A stretch of DNA of 64,000 nucleotides from Desulfurivibrio alkaliphilus AHT 2. GTDB lineage: Bacteria > Desulfobacterota > Desulfobulbia > Desulfobulbales > Desulfurivibrionaceae. The notes below the pieces were generated by a model. That model had not been told where the DNA came from. It worked only from the letters and a program-made list of their open reading frames with translations, and searched no databases. The translations under genes and the position numbers were made by a program. Below are positions 1,213 to 24,453 of the stretch, piece by piece. The stretch lies in assembly GCF_000092205.1 (NCBI RefSeq), contig NC_014216.1, positions 1,741,742-1,805,741 of the forward strand, read 5' to 3'. Every line of letters begins with the position of its first letter. Within the stretch, counting starts at the first letter, position 1.

Positions 1213-3204
1213 TTATGAACCGGCAGCCATCATCTCGCCACCCGGTACCCGCAGTTCGAGCACGCCTTCATCAACCTCACGCAACGGAGTTCCTGGCGGC
1301 GGCTCCTGCTTAACCACTCGACCGCTGCCCCTTACCTGGAAACGCAGGCCGGAGGGCTGCAATACCTGCAGCGCCTTGCGCAGGCTCAACCCCGTCACAT
1401 CCGGCATTCTCTCCGGCGCCCGACGAGTGGCGGCATGCACCTGCAGATCTCCGGCTTCCTGTTTGCCCAGCCAGTCATGATACAAAGCCTCTTTGCGGGC
1501 CAGAATCGCCGCTGGCGCCGGAGGGCTGGCGGCCTGCTCAAGCCTGCCGACCCACTGATCCAGATCTCGCACCACGCCCGCCAGCGGTGACGGCAAGGCC
1601 AGATCCAGGCGGGCCCGATCGACAAAAACCAAGGCCGCCAGTTCCGGCTTCTCAATCGGTGCCATACCCAGCATCACCGCCTGGTAGCGCTGCGGGGCGG
1701 CAGCCCGTTCAACTGCTGCGGCTCCCGCCTGCTCTTGGTGCTCAAGGCCCTGGCCGGAGAGCAGGCTTGCATTATCTGCCATCGCAATCTCCAGTTTTTC
1801 GGCGGAGGATCGGGCTTCAACCACCAGACTCTCATAGATGGCTACTTGACCCTGGTTTCCAGCCGTCGTGGCAAGCTCCTGCAGCATTTGACGATTGAAG
1901 CCAGCCGGCATGGCCGCAGCGGTTATCGCCGACTGCCGCGGCCAAAAATCTGCACCATCCCAAAAACCTCGGATCAGATGCGGCTCCACCGGTTGCCCCT
2001 GGTTAACCAACCGGCTGAAGGCCGCCAGCAAGGAAACTCCGTTAACCACGGCCCGGCGATCCATGAGCAGTTGCCGGCACTCATCGGCCGCCAGTTCCTC
2101 CACCTGCATGATTGGCCCCAGGCTTCGACCTTCCAGCAAATCCAGATTGCTGGCCTGGCAAAGCCCCATCAGTTGCAAAAAATCTTCCGCCAGGGCACCG
2201 GTAGCACGCCCGCTGCCGCCAAATCCGCTGGAAGCATAGACATCCGGCGCCAGCGGATACCACCAGGCTTCTCCCCCGGCCGGCAGTTCACCGTCGTTCG
2301 TGTGGTAAGCTGGCGCCAAACCACCTGTCTCTCCGGCCGCCCGCTGAAAAAGCTCTCCCAAGGCTCCGAGGTGCACCTGGGGCATGACGGCCCTGTTCAA
2401 CCGCTGCTCCGAGCCGGCGGCCCAGAAGCGATTAGGATCGTACCCCGGCAGGCTGGCCATGGCCAGCACCTCCCCGGTGTTAACATTCATGATCAGAGCA
2501 GCCGCGGCACTGCCGTCCGCCGTGCGCAATACCCGCTGCATGCGCTGCTCAAGTTCCCGTTGCAAAGCAAGGTCAAGGGTGCTGACCAGGTGCACCCCGC
2601 CCCCGGCGGTAACCCGATCGGGCACACCGGCCGCCGCCAGCCGAATATCGCTGATCCCGCCGCGCAGAATGTTATCGTAGGAAAGTTCTATGCCCGCCAA
2701 CCCCTGCTCGTCCTTTACAAACCCCACCACATGGGCGGCGCCGTCATGGTGCGGGTAGTACCGATGGGAACTGGGCATGGCGTATATGCCAGGCAATCCG
2801 CGGCCCAGCACTTCATCGGCCACTTCTTTTTTTACCTGGCGACTCAGCCACACGAAACTGCGTTCACTGCGCAGCGAGTCCAGCAAGTGCTGGCGGTCCA
2901 GATCCAGCAAACGAGCAACCTCGGCCGCCGTGGTCTCGGGGTCATTGACTTCCAGCGGCCGGGCGTACAGTGAGCTGAGCCGAAAACTCACCGCCAGGGT
3001 TTCAAAGTTGCGATCGTAAATATTGTTGCGCCGCAGGCTGGAACTTTCCACCAGGGTACCCTTCTGGTAGCCCGGGGCCAGCCTGGCCTCATCGGCTTCA
3101 GAAAGGCTGAACACCCCCCAGAGCGTCAGACCGAACAGCAGCGGCAGCAGAGTAAAAAAGAGCATTTTCCTGCCGCGCTGTTTAGCGCTCATGGTTCGGC
3201 GCAT
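1213..3204 (-). CDS. ftsI: FtsI/PBP3-like division protein with PASTA domain, catalytic motifs apparently lost
   Basis: The 663-residue protein occupies the ftsI position between ftsL and murE. It has a basic N-terminus, one membrane segment (LFFTLLPLLFGLTLWGVF), a PBP dimerisation region (NNIYDRNFETLAVSF, YPHHDGAAHVVGFV, GLAGIELSYDNIL), a recognisable transpeptidase-domain scaffold (LIMNVNTGEVLAMASLPGYDPN) and a C-terminal PASTA repeat (PDVTGLSLRKALQVL). Where class B PBPs have SxxK after the NRAV segment it reads QVHLGALGE. The SxN region reads ASSGFGG, and no KTG motif is found before the conserved RYQAVMLGMAPIEKPELAALV stretch. The fold therefore seems kept while transpeptidation is doubtful. 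The ATG at 3204 is preceded by GGAGG. A structural or regulatory role in the divisome is inference. Confidence 0.85.
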   Translation of the reverse strand: MRRTMSAKQRGRKMLFFTLLPLLFGLTLWGVFSLSEADEARLAPGYQKGTLVESSSLRRNNIYDRNFETLAVSFRLSSLYARPLEVNDPETTAAEVARLLDLDRQHLLDSLRSERSFVWLSRQVKKEVADEVLGRGLPGIYAMPSSHRYYPHHDGAAHVVGFVKDEQGLAGIELSYDNILRGGISDIRLAAAGVPDRVTAGGGVHLVSTLDLALQRELEQRMQRVLRTADGSAAAALIMNVNTGEVLAMASLPGYDPNRFWAAGSEQRLNRAVMPQVHLGALGELFQRAAGETGGLAPAYHTNDGELPAGGEAWWYPLAPDVYASSGFGGSGRATGALAEDFLQLMGLCQASNLDLLEGRSLGPIMQVEELAADECRQLLMDRRAVVNGVSLLAAFSRLVNQGQPVEPHLIRGFWDGADFWPRQSAITAAAMPAGFNRQMLQELATTAGNQGQVAIYESLVVEARSSAEKLEIAMADNASLLSGQGLEHQEQAGAAAVERAAAPQRYQAVMLGMAPIEKPELAALVFVDRARLDLALPSPLAGVVRDLDQWVGRLEQAASPPAPAAILARKEALYHDWLGKQEAGDLQVHAATRRAPERMPDVTGLSLRKALQVLQPSGLRFQVRGSGRVVKQEPPPGTPLREVDEGVLELRVPGGEMMAAGS

Positions 3205-3254
3205 CTTGATCCTCCTTCATGGCTGCCATCTCACATCTTTTACTTAACAGGCTG

Positions 3255-3587
3255 TCACGGACGCTGAACCTGCCCTTTCTTAGGCGGCTGGAGCCCCAGC
3301 CGGGCCGCTTCCGCCTCGATACGCTCCCGGGACCGCAGCTCATCACGCTGGCGGCTCAGCTCTTGGTGCTGCTGCAGGAGTTCTTCCTGCCGTAACTGCT
3401 CAACTTCCACCGCCCTCTCTCCCTGGTGCACCGACCAGGCCAGCCATAAGGCCAACACCCCCACCAGCAGCGCCAAGGGCACCGGCCCGGCCTTGCCTAA
3501 CAAAAAAAGGCCCGCCTCCCGGCCGGAGGTCCAGGCCCCCCGAGCCTGACTCCTGCCGCCCCGGCGGTTACCGCCCTGGCGGATCAT
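3255..3587 (-). CDS. ftsL: Cell division protein FtsL-like
   Basis: Small bitopic protein of 110 residues: a basic, glycine-rich cytoplasmic tail, one hydrophobic segment near residues 35-52 (VPLALLVGVLALWLAWSV) and a periplasmic coiled-coil rich in Glu, Gln and Arg, ending in the LGLQPPKKG type of tail common in FtsL. FtsL sequences are poorly conserved, so the call rests on size, topology and its place between rsmH and the ftsI-like gene. Its start codon overlaps the rsmH stop by 4 bp (ATGA), implying translational coupling. In the known system FtsL acts with FtsB and FtsQ to recruit FtsW/FtsI. Confidence 0.8.
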   Translation of the reverse strand: MIRQGGNRRGGRSQARGAWTSGREAGLFLLGKAGPVPLALLVGVLALWLAWSVHQGERAVEVEQLRQEELLQQHQELSRQRDELRSRERIEAEAARLGLQPPKKGQVQRP

Positions 3588-19307: not shown

Positions 19308-20780
19308 ATGAGCAAGGCTGAAATCATCGATATTGAGCAGGCGGTCGATCGCCTGGAGCAGGAGGTTCCCAACTACCGGGTGCCGGTGGTCGATTTGATC
19401 GCCGTACAGAGCCAGGACCCATACAAGGTGCTGGTGGCAACCATTCTTTCGGCTCGCACCCGGGATGAAACCACCGCCGGGGCGGCAGCCCGGCTTTTCG
19501 CCCGGGCCCCGGACCTCGACACCCTGGCCCGGCTCAGCGAGGAAGAGCTGGCCAAACTAATCCGACCGGTGGGGTTTTTTCGTGCCAAGGCCGGTTATCT
19601 GGCCCGCCTGCCGGCGGCGCTGACGGCTAAATTCCGGGGTAAAATTCCCGCCACCGTGGAGGAACTGGTCCAGCTGCCGGGGGTGGGGCGCAAGACCGCC
19701 AACCTGGTGGTGGCGGTGGCCTTTGAACGGCCGGCGATCTGTGTTGACACCCATGTCCACCGGATCATGAACATCTGGGGTTACGTCAACACCACCACCC
19801 CCGAGGCCACGGAAAAGGCGTTGCGGGCCAAGCTGCCGCAACCTTACTGGCGCCGTATCAACTCTTTGCTGGTGGCCTTCGGCCAGGAAATCTGCCGCCC
19901 GGTGGGACCACACTGCGATCGCTGCCCGCTGGCCCAGCTCTGCCCCCGGCTGGGGGTCCGCCCCCGCAAGCCCCCGGCCCCGCGCCCCCCCATGTCCGCC
20001 GCCCCCGGCGGAACCTCCTTGCGGCTGGCCTCCTGGAACGTCAATGGGCTGCGGGCCATTGCCAAAAAAGGATTCGCCGAGCTGGCCGGAGAACTTGACG
20101 CCGACCTGCTGGCCATTCAGGAGATCAAGGCCCATCCGGACCAACTTCCCGCCGAGGCACGGGCGTTGCCGGGCTACCAGGCCTTCTGGCTGCCGGCCAA
20201 ACGCAAAGGATATTCCGGAGTAGCGATCTACAGCCGGCTGGAGCCGCTCAAGGTGCTTTACGGGATGGGACAGGAAGAGAAGTACGAGCAGGAAGGCCGG
20301 GTGCTTACCATGGAATTTGCCGACTTTTTTCTGGTCAACGCCTATCTGCCCAACGCCCAGCCGGAGTTGGCCCGCCTGCCCTTCAAGCTGGATTTCTGTC
20401 GCCATTTTCAGCAGTTTTGCGAGAACCTGGCGACCCAAAAAAACGTCGTGGTCTGCGGGGACTTAAATGTCGCCCACCGGGAAATCGACCTGGCCCGGCC
20501 CCAGGAGAACCAGCAGAGCCCCGGCTTTTCCCCGGCGGAAAGGGCCTGGCTGGACGGCTTCCTGGCCAACGGCTTCACCGACACCTTTCGCCTGTTCAAC
20601 CAGGAGGGAGGTAACTATACCTGGTGGAGTTATCGCGGCGGGGCCAGGCAGCGCAACGTGGGCTGGAGAATCGATTATTTCTGCATCGACAGCGCCGGTC
20701 GCCGGCGGGTGCGGGAGGCCGGCATCCGCCCGGAGATCATGGGCTCGGACCACTGCCCGGTAACCTTGACCCTGGGGTAA
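19308..20780 (+). CDS. Fused endonuclease III / exonuclease III (base-excision repair)
   Basis: One open frame of 490 residues joins two repair enzymes. Residues 1 to about 215 are an Nth-type glycosylase/AP lyase: helix-hairpin-helix LPGVGRKTANLVVAVA with the catalytic Lys, Asp in VDTHVHRI, and a C-x6-C-x2-C-x5-C iron-sulfur cluster (CRPVGPHCDRCPLAQLC). A Pro/Arg/Ala-rich linker (RPRKPPAPRPPMSAAPGG) follows. Residues about 233-490 are an ExoA/Xth-type AP endonuclease with ASWNVNGLRA, AIQEIKA, VVCGDLNVAHREIDLA, WRIDYFC and GSDHCPV. Both halves keep their active residues, so one chain could excise a base and process the abasic site. The start ATG follows GAGGAGAG-like sequence. Confidence 0.93.
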   Translation: MSKAEIIDIEQAVDRLEQEVPNYRVPVVDLIAVQSQDPYKVLVATILSARTRDETTAGAAARLFARAPDLDTLARLSEEELAKLIRPVGFFRAKAGYLARLPAALTAKFRGKIPATVEELVQLPGVGRKTANLVVAVAFERPAICVDTHVHRIMNIWGYVNTTTPEATEKALRAKLPQPYWRRINSLLVAFGQEICRPVGPHCDRCPLAQLCPRLGVRPRKPPAPRPPMSAAPGGTSLRLASWNVNGLRAIAKKGFAELAGELDADLLAIQEIKAHPDQLPAEARALPGYQAFWLPAKRKGYSGVAIYSRLEPLKVLYGMGQEEKYEQEGRVLTMEFADFFLVNAYLPNAQPELARLPFKLDFCRHFQQFCENLATQKNVVVCGDLNVAHREIDLARPQENQQSPGFSPAERAWLDGFLANGFTDTFRLFNQEGGNYTWWSYRGGARQRNVGWRIDYFCIDSAGRRRVREAGIRPEIMGSDHCPVTLTLG

Positions 20781-20804: not shown

Positions 20805-21491
20805 CTAAAGGCGATCGTCGGCCGCTTTTGCCAGGGCCTCCCGTACCTCTTCACCCTCAAGCCAGCCCTGCAACGCCTCGGCCAACTGCTGCAGACCCCG
20901 GCGATGGGCGACCACCCCGCCAAAAGCGTCGGGGCTGGGCGCCTGCTGCCGGAAGGCAAACTTCCGCCGGCTTGCCGCCGTGCCGGCGGGGCTTATCAGT
21001 TCGGCCCTCACTTCCAGCAGGGTATGGCTGTCGGAGGCGGTCTGAAAGATTTGTACAAATTCATCCAGGGTCAACCGCAGCCGGCAGAGTTCCAGGCCGG
21101 CGGCCAGGGCTTGCGGTTCGGGCCATTCGGCGCCCTCCGGCCGGTCGCCCTCGGCGGTAAGTCGACCGTTGGCAAAGTAACGTTCCAGGCTGCGGGCGAT
21201 CATTTCCCCCGGCTCCGCCACCCAGCGACTCTCCCGGTACTCGCGCCGCCGCAACTCACCATCGTCCCGGTAGGCCAGGCGATACTGCATGGTCCGGCTC
21301 CGCAGCCAGGAAGGAACCAGTACCTCCACCCGGGGACCGGCCTGGCCGACCCGCACCGTGTTGGCAAGAGGCTCATCCTGGGGCAAGGGCAAGCGCAACT
21401 CGTAATAGGCCGGGGCCGGCGGCGGCTCCGCCACCAGACCGCAGCCGCTTATCCACAGCAGAACCACCAGCAGCGACAACCAGACACGCAT
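20805..21491 (-). CDS. ABC-transport auxiliary lipoprotein (PqiC/DUF330-like)
   Basis: 228 residues with a lipobox (VVLLWISGCG) after a short hydrophobic stretch. The mature protein shows YYELRLP, VEVLVPSWLRSRTMQYRL, WVAEPGEMIARSLERYF and a FVQIFQTASDSHTLLEVRAEL stretch, as in the ABC-type transport auxiliary lipoproteins linked to MCE operons. It is the last gene of the mla-like cluster, 41 bp after mlaD. It probably sits on the outer membrane or periplasmic side and helps move lipids handled by the MCE ring. Confidence 0.82.
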   Translation of the reverse strand: MRVWLSLLVVLLWISGCGLVAEPPPAPAYYELRLPLPQDEPLANTVRVGQAGPRVEVLVPSWLRSRTMQYRLAYRDDGELRRREYRESRWVAEPGEMIARSLERYFANGRLTAEGDRPEGAEWPEPQALAAGLELCRLRLTLDEFVQIFQTASDSHTLLEVRAELISPAGTAASRRKFAFRQQAPSPDAFGGVVAHRRGLQQLAEALQGWLEGEEVREALAKAADDRL

Positions 21492-21532
21492 CGATTCCTC
21501 CCTGAGCTTTCTTATATTGCCCCGGTAACCGT

Positions 21533-22486
21533 TCAGCGGGCGCTCTCACCCGGGCCCGGCTCCGGTTCCGCCCAACCCCGCAGCAGAAGCTCCGGGTTAA
21601 GCTCAAGCTCTTCAAGCAGATAGTTCAAACGCCGCGAGCCGGCACCGATATCCTCCAGCATCCGGTCGATTTTAGGTAGGGTTTCGGCCTGCAAACGCTG
21701 CCCGGCTTGCCCCAGTTCGCGGCCAAGTTCGGACGCCGCCGTCTCCAGCCGGGCGCTCATCCCGTCCAGGGAGACCAGCAGGGTCCGCAGATCATCCACC
21801 GCCGGCAGCGCCTCGCCCCCCAGTTGCTCCAAATTTTCCAGCACCGCCGCCAGCCGTTGCTGGTTGTCCGGCCCGAGCAGCTCCTGCATCGCCTCCAGGG
21901 TGGCCGGTAAACCCTCGAGGCCCTGGTCGATACTCTCACCGGCGGAGGTCAGTTGCACCACCATCTCATCAAACCGCACCTGGTTCTCGGCACTGAGAAA
22001 TTTCGCCAGATTATTGGACATCAGCTCAAGCCCCTGCATGGCCTCCAGGGCCGCCTCGGCGATCCTGGTAAGCATGCTGGGTTTCAACGGCAAACGGGGC
22101 GGGTACCCCGGCTCGGCCACCAGCGGCCGGGGGTCGGAACCATCATCCTCAAGCTGGACGTAGGCCACCCCGGTAACTCCCTGGGTGTCCAGAACCGCCA
22201 CGGTCCCCCGGGTGACCGGGAGTTGATCGTCAATCCTGATCGTCACCAGAATTTGGCGGGGATCCTCCGCATCGAGCCGGATATCGGTAACCTTGCCCGC
22301 CGCGATCCCCCTGAACCTTACATCGGCGCCCACGTTGAGGTTGCCGATATTGCCCTCGGTGACCAGAATGTATTCGCCCGCCAGCTCACGCTCACCGGCA
22401 AACCACCAGATGGCCAGCACCATCGCCGTGCCCAGCACCAAAACGAAAATTCCCGCCGCCAGGGCATAACTGCGGTTTTCCATCAC
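21533..22486 (-). CDS. mlaD: MCE-domain periplasmic lipid-transport protein (MlaD-like)
   Basis: 317 residues: one N-terminal membrane anchor (YALAAGIFVLVLGTAMVLAIWW) and one MCE domain around residues 38-120 (GNIGNLNVGADVRFRGIAAGKVTDIRL, TQGVTGVAYVQL). A long helical, coiled-coil-prone C-terminus ends with RLNYLLEELELNPELLLRGW. MCE proteins form hexameric rings that carry phospholipids between the membranes. The long helical tail is more like PqiB/YebT or mycobacterial Mce than the short E. coli MlaD. It is in the operon with the ATPase and permease. Confidence 0.92.
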   Translation of the reverse strand: MMENRSYALAAGIFVLVLGTAMVLAIWWFAGERELAGEYILVTEGNIGNLNVGADVRFRGIAAGKVTDIRLDAEDPRQILVTIRIDDQLPVTRGTVAVLDTQGVTGVAYVQLEDDGSDPRPLVAEPGYPPRLPLKPSMLTRIAEAALEAMQGLELMSNNLAKFLSAENQVRFDEMVVQLTSAGESIDQGLEGLPATLEAMQELLGPDNQQRLAAVLENLEQLGGEALPAVDDLRTLLVSLDGMSARLETAASELGRELGQAGQRLQAETLPKIDRMLEDIGAGSRRLNYLLEELELNPELLLRGWAEPEPGPGESAR

Positions 22487-22512
22487 GCTACTCTTTCAGT
22501 CACTTTGAGGTT

Positions 22513-22569
22513 GGTAATCGTGCTGCAGCACCGTATCTTCGTAATCGTTCAGCAGCACCGCATCTTCGG
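22513..22569. repeat. Palindromic repeat remnant, copy D (two tandem left arms)
   Basis: Two adjacent half-copies of the repeat arm: GGTAATCGTGCTGCAGCACC then GTATCTTCG, followed by CGTAATCGTTCAGCAGCACC then GCATCTTCGGT. Both match the left arm of copy B, with no right arm. It sits in the mlaF-mlaD gap. Confidence 0.65.
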
Positions 22570-22573
22570 TCCG

Positions 22574-23338
22574 TCACAAGGCCGTTGTCGTCGGCAGGCC
22601 AAAAAAACGCTCAACAAAGGGGTGCTGCAACTGCCTGGTTTCCTCCAGCGAGAGGGCGCTGATAATCCGCCGGTCGGCCAGCACCGCCACCCTGCCGGCC
22701 AGGGAACTCAAGGTGGCTACATCATGGGTAACCAGCACCACAGTGATCCCCAGCTGCCGCTGCAACCTCCTGATCAGCCGGACAAAGGCCACGCTACGAT
22801 CGGGATCCAGACCGGAGGTGGGCTCATCCAGCAGCAGCAGTTCCGGCTCCAGGGCCAGGGCCCGGGCCAGCGCCACCCTTTTCACCATCCCTCCGGACAG
22901 CTCCGCCGGCATCAACAGGGCATGTTCCGGTTCCAACTCCACCATGGCCAGCTTGTAAGCCACCAGATCCCGGACCTCCTCTTCCCGCACCACCCCCAGT
23001 TCACGCAAGGGGAAAGCAATATTATCCCCCACACTGAGGGCGGAAAACAAGGCCCCATGCTGAAAAAGCACCCCGAACCGCCGCCGCCGGGCCTGGCGGG
23101 CCAGGTAGTCCCCGGCCCACAGCGGCTCGCCGAACAGGAAAACCTCCCCGGCCGCCGGCCGGTTCAGGCCGATGATATGGCGCAGCAGGGTGGTTTTGCC
23201 GCTGCCCGAACCTCCCACCAGCGCCACAATCTCATCGGCCCGGATTTCCAGGTCCACCCCGTCCAGTACCAGGTTGGCTCCGAAACGGCAAACCACTCCC
23301 CGCAACTCCACCACTTTGCTCGCCGCTGTGCCCTTCAT
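22574..23338 (-). CDS. mlaF: ABC transporter ATP-binding protein (MlaF-like)
   Basis: 254-residue ATPase of the Mla/Ttg2 lipid transporter. Walker A GGSGSGKTTLLRHI, Q-loop region FGVLFQHGALFSALSVGDN, signature ELSGGMVKRVALARAL, Walker B LLLLDEPTSGLDP and the switch VLVTHDVATL are present. FQHGALFSALSV and the SGGMxKR signature are characteristic of MlaF. The start codon overlaps the mlaE stop by one base (TAATG), so translation is coupled. Confidence 0.96.
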   Translation of the reverse strand: MKGTAASKVVELRGVVCRFGANLVLDGVDLEIRADEIVALVGGSGSGKTTLLRHIIGLNRPAAGEVFLFGEPLWAGDYLARQARRRRFGVLFQHGALFSALSVGDNIAFPLRELGVVREEEVRDLVAYKLAMVELEPEHALLMPAELSGGMVKRVALARALALEPELLLLDEPTSGLDPDRSVAFVRLIRRLQRQLGITVVLVTHDVATLSSLAGRVAVLADRRIISALSLEETRQLQHPFVERFFGLPTTTAL

Positions 23339-24453
23339 TACAGGGGAACCCCGACGTTGCGCAGCATCACCGCAAACACCGCATCAACCAAAATCACCGT
23401 GGTGATGGCGGTAACCACCGAAGCCGTGGTGTGGGCCGCCAGGCTCTCGGTGTTGGGCCGGATACGCAGCCCGAAATGGCAGGCCACCAGCGCGATCAGC
23501 AGCCCGAACACGGCGCCTTTGCCAAGCCCGATGTAGAGGTTGGCAATGGGTACCACCTGCGGCAGTTTTTCCATGAAAAAGGCAAAACTGATTCCCAGTT
23601 GCATATTGGCCGACAACATGCCCCCCAGCAGGGCCACCGCCGAGGTCCACAGCACCAGCAACGGCATTACCAGGGTAAGGGCCAGCACCTTGGGCAACAC
23701 CAGGCGAATGGTGCGGGAAATCCCCATGGCCGCCAAGGCGTCGATCTCTTCGGTAACTCGCATGACGCCAAGTTGGGCGGTCATGGCCGAGCCGGAACGA
23801 CCGGCCACCAGGATCGCCACCAGCACCGGCCCCAGCTCACGTATAATCCCCAGGCCGAGGATGTCGATCAGATAGACCTCCACCCCAAAGGCCTCCAACT
23901 GCATGGCCGACAGGTAGGAGAGTACCACCCCGATGAGAAAGCCCACCAGCGCCGCCACCGGCATGGCCTTAACCCCAACCTTATACATGTTGGCGGAAAG
24001 CTCACGCAAAGGCCACTGGCGGGGATGGCGCACAAGGAAAAGCAGATCCAGCAGCAACTGCCCCAGCAGGGTAACCAGGTCGCGGGCATGGCCAAGGAAG
24101 GTGAACAGCATCGACCCCAGCAAAACCAGGGCCTCCAGCAGGGTAAAGCGGTGCGGCCGGGGCAGGGGCCTGCCGCTGTGGGCCGCCACCGCCGCAATCA
24201 CCCCCCGCAGTTCATCATTAATCTCCAGGTTTTTGGGCCAGCTTCGCCCCCAGTGCTGCCAGAGCAACATGGCGCCGAAGCTGTCCAGTCGCTCCACCTC
24301 GCGCAGGGACCATGATGCACCGGCCGGTGTCGCTTGCAATTGCGGCCGGATTGCCGCCAGATGACGGGCCAGTTCCCCCAGGGTCCAGCTACCCGCCAGT
24401 TGTCGGCCGTCACGGGCATCGATTTGCAGGCGGGGACGGGCCATGGGGGTCAA
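23338..24453 (-). CDS. mlaE: ABC transporter permease with N-terminal STAS-like domain (MlaE-like)
   Basis: Inner-membrane permease of the Mla-type system, 371 residues from TTG 24453 or 368 from ATG 24444. The first about 90 residues form a STAS/MlaB-like domain (VERLDSFGAMLLWQHWG), so the separate MlaB subunit of E. coli appears fused here. The remaining part has the MlaE family core: FIGVVLSYLSAMQLEAFG, ELGPVLVAILVAGRSGSAMTAQLGVMRVTEEIDAL and multiple membrane spans. The TTG overlaps the stop of the upstream kinase gene (TTGA), linking the two. Confidence 0.93.
   Translation of the reverse strand: MTPMARPRLQIDARDGRQLAGSWTLGELARHLAAIRPQLQATPAGASWSLREVERLDSFGAMLLWQHWGRSWPKNLEINDELRGVIAAVAAHSGRPLPRPHRFTLLEALVLLGSMLFTFLGHARDLVTLLGQLLLDLLFLVRHPRQWPLRELSANMYKVGVKAMPVAALVGFLIGVVLSYLSAMQLEAFGVEVYLIDILGLGIIRELGPVLVAILVAGRSGSAMTAQLGVMRVTEEIDALAAMGISRTIRLVLPKVLALTLVMPLLVLWTSAVALLGGMLSANMQLGISFAFFMEKLPQVVPIANLYIGLGKGAVFGLLIALVACHFGLRIRPNTESLAAHTTASVVTAITTVILVDAVFAVMLRNVGVPL

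Follow-up and report, generated by a model that had tools for sequence, protein, structure and literature searches.

A conserved single-chain fusion of endonuclease III and exonuclease III in the Desulfobulbales, a probable two-step base-excision-repair enzyme

Desulfurivibrio alkaliphilus AHT2T is described as a strict anaerobe of soda lakes (PMC5016858). It belongs to the order Desulfobulbales (NCBI taxonomy), and the window analysed here is a stretch of 64,000 nucleotides of its genome, at 1741742-1805741 of contig C1. At positions 19308..20780 of the forward strand, which also carries all the other features of the gene described below, lies a fused nth-xth gene of 490 codons and a stop, recognized by domain models and by full-length relatives. 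Its frame opens with ATG at 19308, ends with TAA at 20778-20780 and has no internal stop in the translation, so the coordinates and the 490-residue length given by the original prediction are exact. The protein is formed by an Nth domain (endonuclease III), a linker of about 25 residues and an Xth domain of the exonuclease III/APE1 type.

The Nth domain comprises residues 1-221 (19308..19970) and matches the Pfam models HhH-GPD (PF00730, residues 43-177, 88.1 bits) and HHH (PF00633, residues 109-136, 39.2 bits), both above cut-off. Its score with the NCBIfam nth equivalog TIGR01083 is below the cut-off (177.5 vs 211.7 bits), and by that model it is a divergent Nth-family domain and not that equivalog. 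Lys129 (19692..19694), in the motif LPGVGRKTAN, is the expected Schiff-base lysine of a bifunctional glycosylase, while Asp147 (19746..19748), in the motif VDTH, is the expected catalytic aspartate; we take their E. coli counterparts to be K120 and D138. The 4Fe-4S loop occupies residues 196-212 (19893..19943) and has the spacing C196-X6-C203-X2-C206-X5-C212.

The Xth domain, of the exonuclease III/ExoA/APE1 type with an EEP fold, comprises residues 237-490 (20016..20777) and is supported by Pfam, NCBIfam, PDB matches and fold. It matches Exo_endo_phos (PF03372) at residues 241-482 with 100.1 bits and passes two NCBIfam cut-offs, those of TIGR00633 (298.8 bits, cut-off 99.05) and TIGR00195 (283.5 bits, cut-off 182.55). 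Its catalytic and metal-binding residues are N244, E272, Y346, D385, N387, D456, D481, and H482. Among them, Glu272 (20121..20123) is the expected metal ligand and His482 (20751..20753) the expected catalytic histidine, presumably equivalent to E34 and H259 of the E. coli enzyme. The linker, residues 213-236 (19944..20015), is rich in Pro, Lys, Arg and Gly, is modelled with low confidence (pLDDT block means of 55-72) and contains an in-frame ATG (Met229, 19992..19994), which is a possible internal start and has no Shine-Dalgarno-like sequence upstream. Among the 60 PDB matches listed of 91, each sequence has one matched stretch, in either the Nth or the Xth half.

An AlphaFold2 model built from 34 alignment rows has a mean pLDDT of 83.4 and a pTM of 0.64, a value that gives no confidence to the relative placement of the two domains. 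The first half is all-helical, up to residue 195 within the Nth domain, residues from about 191 to 240 are weak (pLDDT block means of 55-74), and the second half has the EEP fold with a poor loop at 434-453. In a fold search the modelled Xth part, from about residue 232-237 to 490, aligns with XthA, Mth212 and APE1 with Z scores of 33-36 (36.2 for H. pylori XthA). These matches cover the Xth part only, so the fold of the Nth half is assigned from its sequence and from the all-helical model.

Conservation was evaluated in 84 distinct fused proteins, after removal of four duplicates and one interrupted copy. Lys129, Asp147, the four cysteines of the iron-sulphur loop and the eight Xth residues named above are identical in 84/84, and the sole variable position among the catalytic residues checked is Tyr442, which is Tyr in 82 proteins and Phe in two. 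The lesion-reading loop has Arg at position 50 in all 84. The mean frequency of the most common residue is 0.75 for residues 11-221 and 0.71 for residues 237-490, and falls to 0.39 for residues 222-236; beyond its first few residues the linker is not conserved in sequence. Its length, counted from the last Cys to the SWNVNG motif, is nevertheless kept at 20-32 residues in 81 of the 84 proteins (median 26), with 52-61 in the other three. Both halves thus look catalytically complete as far as their residues tell, in agreement with the original prediction of a complete Nth with its 4Fe-4S motif and catalytic Lys and Asp, and of a complete Xth with its metal and His residues.

The fusion was counted as present in a genome if the best match had E<1e-150, a value that only matches to both halves reach in these listings. 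By this threshold 190 of the order's 257 genomes have a full-length fusion, spread over 11 of its 15 families; among the 148 genomes with at least 90% completeness and at most 5% contamination, 118 have it. Relatives of the same genus (L083, L084, L167) are likewise fused, and fused relatives outside the genus are mostly 56-66% identical. The survey of relatives proposed with the original prediction therefore describes a common state of the order with secondary splits, not a peculiarity of one genome. Outside the order, the sample consisted of 375 genomes of the phylum (394 minus 19 that belong to the order), and the fusion is present in three of them, two from one family (G319, G615) and one from another (G431).

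From the 67 genomes of the order below the threshold, 36 were re-examined, plus G189 and G048. Two of the 36 have a single frame with a long linker (G200, G201), eight have adjacent split nth and xth genes (G012, G014, G074, G192, G194, G195, G197, G198), ten have an Nth and an unlinked Xth that is 44-50% identical, and eight have an Nth with no Xth match; five have fragments, mostly at contig ends, and three have distant relatives only. G189 has one fused frame of 555 residues. In G048 (L168, 1376-2889, plus strand) the fused gene is interrupted within the Nth half and reads as two overlapping frames, owing to assembly error or decay.

A wider scan of genome contigs, based on six short peptide patterns of the D. 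alkaliphilus fusion, retained 80 of 101 loci. Ten of them (L003-L012) are full-length and are labelled Desulfobulbaceae, Desulfobulbus, Desulfocapsaceae or plain Deltaproteobacteria. No fusion beyond the phylum is present among the 80 loci retained by the six patterns, a scan that may miss fusions of distant groups. The longer Xth frames at L023, L031, L033, L047, and L055 have no glycosylase domain by Pfam. A mobile or phage origin was considered and rejected, as a tblastn search of 50,697 phage and 72,556 plasmid records gave none in which one place covered 80% of the query.

The history of the gene was traced with two quickly built trees, one of 121 Nth and one of 121 Xth domains, which include only 13 of the Xth-only loci from L013-L082. 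In each of them the split genes are nested within the fused ones: the split gene of G074 stands beside the fused gene of G073 with supports of 98 and 100, and five split genes of the genus g4 fall inside the 15-member g4 group (support 98, Nth tree). Fused and split Xth domains form one group with four lone Xth domains (two outside families) with a support of 92, and a tree in which fused and split Xth make a single clade is not rejected by the AU test (p 0.175). Given the nested splits and this constraint, these sequences are most simply read as one fusion that later underwent fission, with separate origins not disproved. On the best reading, the fusion has one origin, at the base of the order or close to it; most members have kept it, and repeated fission, loss of Xth and rare transfer came later. 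The trees intersperse the fused genes from outside the order with the order's own, a position that suggests acquisition by transfer.

Some of the fissions came about when palindromic repeats landed between the domains. At the splits of G192 and G074 the linker holds an interspersed palindromic repeat; G200 and G201 have a similar insert that leaves the frame open. Copies with at most two mismatches number 46 in G192 and 89 in G200 for a 22-base pattern and 23 in G074 for another pattern, and a reversed control pattern has no copy in G192 or G074. At L113, L117, and L119 of genus g4 and at L116 of G074, the repeats are seen to sit exactly between the domains and provide either extra linker in frame or a stop.

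In a subclade of the family f7 (L131-L140, L169, L170, L191-L195) the fusion-type Nth is found alone and an Xth that is 44-50% identical is encoded elsewhere. This lone Xth is placed far from the fused clade (support 100). Since a tree constrained to unite it with the fused clade is not rejected by the AU test (p 0.226), we only lean towards the reading that the fused Xth was lost in the subclade and that another Xth stands in its place.

No conserved operon surrounds the fused gene. Its flanking genes are shared only within the genus, so the retention of the fusion is not accounted for by linkage or an operon. In the window, the downstream region 20805-24453 on the opposite strand has frames judged by eye as Mce/Mla lipid-transport-like, comprising a small protein with a lipoprotein-like N-terminus, an MlaD-like protein, an ATPase and a permease; the frame at 20805-21491 (minus strand) has no NCBIfam match. 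In five f7 loci (L173, L179, L180, L182, L187) an HhH-GPD frame of 362-437 residues, probably MutY judging by its size, adjoins the fused gene and is read from the opposite strand.

The D. alkaliphilus genome also encodes a second HhH-GPD protein, of 258 residues (L002, 1189-1965, plus strand, near position 1826836 of contig C1). Its best NCBIfam model, below cut-off, is a 3-methyladenine glycosylase, and it looks monofunctional, since its lysine motif reads GPETAD and has no Schiff-base Lys. With the fusion as query no further Xth is found in the genome. Endonuclease IV (Nfo) is encoded, with 282.2 bits for TIGR00587 (cut-off 129.65), and consequently the Xth half is neither the only AP endonuclease encoded nor indispensable for AP incision. 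Nfo scores above the cut-off in 19 of the 22 genomes of the order chosen for this comparison, and it is present in the five chosen genomes that have an Nth with no Xth match (G017, G212, G213, G220, G232). At L149 a second TIM-barrel protein of the AP_endonuc_2 family (2442-3281, minus strand) adjoins endonuclease IV and faces it. The fusion is not essential, as genomes with split genes, with no Xth and with an unlinked Xth exist.

The reading that we favour, and consider probable, is that of a two-headed base-excision-repair enzyme that derives from a single old fusion and passes its product from Nth to Xth along a tether. From the conserved active sites and the narrow range of tether length, which are read directly from the alignment, we infer the activities, the hand-off and its benefit. 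By family resemblance, the Nth domain, which belongs to the archaeal/NTHL1-like type of iron-sulphur HhH glycosylases, would flip out an oxidised pyrimidine and remove it by means of Lys129 and Asp147, and may then nick the AP site by β-elimination and leave a 3' unsaturated-aldehyde block. The Mg-dependent Xth domain, again by analogy with its family, would hydrolyse the 5' side of the AP site or strip the 3' block, and its product would be a 3'-OH that a DNA polymerase can use. The flexible tether might hold Xth close to Nth, so that the toxic intermediate passes on without awaiting a free Xth, and the release of the product from Nth might be faster. With about 25 residues keeping Xth near the Nth product, either route would end in a 3'-OH on one protein.

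Published accounts of Nth-type enzymes describe a glycosylase and β-elimination lyase that excises oxidised pyrimidines and leaves a 3'-PUA, a block that must be removed; the lyase step proceeds slowly, and an AP endonuclease, APE1, can bypass it (PMC13022620, PMC12190888). The original prediction held that the gene couples base removal and AP-site incision, which are normally the work of separate enzymes. The single-chain fusion is real, but in this family the two activities are not normally apart, as Nth-type enzymes already do both. What the fusion would add is Xth-type hydrolytic AP incision and cleaning of the 3' end on the same chain, with coupling between the halves as a predicted property. 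A further step, to which we give only tentative credence, is that the protein is a natural single-chain repair channel, in which a single polypeptide deals with the damaged base, the AP site and the blocked 3' end and does not let them go between steps.

The main rival, which we regard as unlikely though the most serious, is that two independent enzymes merely share a chain, which gives them equal expression and is kept by neutral inertia with no hand-off. The unconserved linker sequence, the tolerance of fissions and of Xth loss and the presence of Nfo as a backup for AP incision are all compatible with it. Yet independent enzymes would not readily explain why 190 of 257 genomes retain the fusion, with identities of mostly 56-66% beyond the genus and no conserved neighbourhood, nor why linker length stays narrow in 81 of 84 proteins.

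It is more improbable still that the gene has a second product besides the full-length fusion, a free Xth that starts within the linker. Many linkers retain Met-Lys/Arg-Phe at the old Xth start, which is where the Xth of split relatives begins. A Shine-Dalgarno-like motif precedes 25 of 57 linker ATGs vs 74 of 442 other in-frame ATGs, in 24 of 83 genes, with a Fisher p of 1e-5 that overstates the enrichment because the rows, being related, do not count as independent. However, acidic codons (GAG GA) mimic such a motif, much of the signal comes from the single genus g4, 35 of the 83 genes have no linker ATG, and the ATG at 19992 of the D. alkaliphilus gene has no such motif. A free Xth is thus possible in some relatives, judging from these motifs, and is not supported in D. 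alkaliphilus.

That one half is now a non-catalytic DNA-binding or structural module is very unlikely. The sub-threshold score of the Nth half with the NCBIfam nth model would fit this idea, as would R50, which replaces the Gln that we take to be carried at this position by the E. coli-type lesion-reading loop; but the Nth Lys, Asp and four Cys and the checked Xth residues are invariant, apart from the one Tyr position that is Phe in two proteins, and the solved Nth 9nzc also reads RTRDE in its lesion-reading loop. Finally, there is a negligible probability that a base-calling error in the C-rich run ahead of 19992 joined two genes. Seven consecutive C shortly before the in-frame linker ATG could speak for it, and the original prediction named a frameshift whose correction splits the frame as one way in which it might fail. 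Conservation across the order (190 of 257 genomes, 84 distinct fused proteins from many assemblies, same-genus relatives included) excludes frameshift error or chance, and the genome is finished as a single contig of 3,097,763 bases, the value published for AHT2T (PMC5016858).

How the toxic product of a glycosylase is passed to an AP endonuclease with no stable complex is a standing question of base excision repair. Separate glycosylases and AP endonucleases are described as handing over dynamically, with stable complexes absent (PMC7465369), and both active-displacement and passive kinetic-trapping models have been proposed (PMC12190888). With a conserved fusion at hand, and with close relatives whose two domains have separated again, this question can be tested directly. 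If the single-chain channel is true, fused and split orthologues within one genus would be natural tethered and untethered versions with which the value of a hand-off can be measured. The fusion may also serve as a ready two-step reagent that turns oxidised pyrimidines into clean 3'-OH nicks, and as a marker architecture for the order.

Both halves belong to known enzyme families, and what is new is the conserved fusion of consecutive steps of one pathway. No published description of an Nth-Xth fusion was found among the open-access titles and abstracts listed, while the annotation of protein databases may already show the architecture; the fusions reported in PMC1839093 and PMC8307549, as far as these sources were covered, are of other kinds. 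With endonuclease III (TIGR01083/PF00730), whose nearest solved members are 9nzc/9nzd and then human NTHL1 (7rds/7rdt), the first half shares the HhH-GPD fold, the catalytic Lys and Asp and the 4Fe-4S loop. It differs by the Xth added at the C-terminus and by an RTRD loop, shared with 9nzc, in place of a Q-containing one. The second half resembles the exonuclease III/ExoA/APE1 family (TIGR00633, PF03372), in which the nearest solved proteins are Mth212, H. pylori XthA, B. subtilis ExoA, and APE1, by 42-48% identity over about 250 residues, by the EEP fold and by the catalytic residues, and differs by the Nth fused at its N-terminus. A uridine endonuclease of the Mth212 type was rejected as a candidate. 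The uracil contacts of Mth212 include Lys125 and Ser171 (PMC8307549); Lys125 corresponds to K360 (84/84), but Ser171 corresponds to P405 and is Pro in 52 and Ala in 32 of the 84 proteins, so Mth212-like uracil activity is not predicted.

Among natural fusions of repair proteins, the alkyltransferase-endonuclease V of Ferroplasma acidarmanus likewise joins two DNA-repair activities in one chain (PMC3489907, PMC7690668), but its enzymes are different ones and do not follow each other in one reaction path. The Ada-AlkA fusions are likewise natural bacterial fusions with a base-excision glycosylase (PMC1839093), but they combine a regulator with the glycosylase and have no AP endonuclease. Human NTHL1 and APE1 perform the same two consecutive steps, and APE1 stimulates or bypasses the lyase step of the glycosylase (PMC13022620, PMC12190888, PMC7465369). 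Unlike the two halves of the fusion, they have no covalent link and are described as forming no stable complexes (PMC7465369), while in the Desulfobulbales the two domains are held on one chain.
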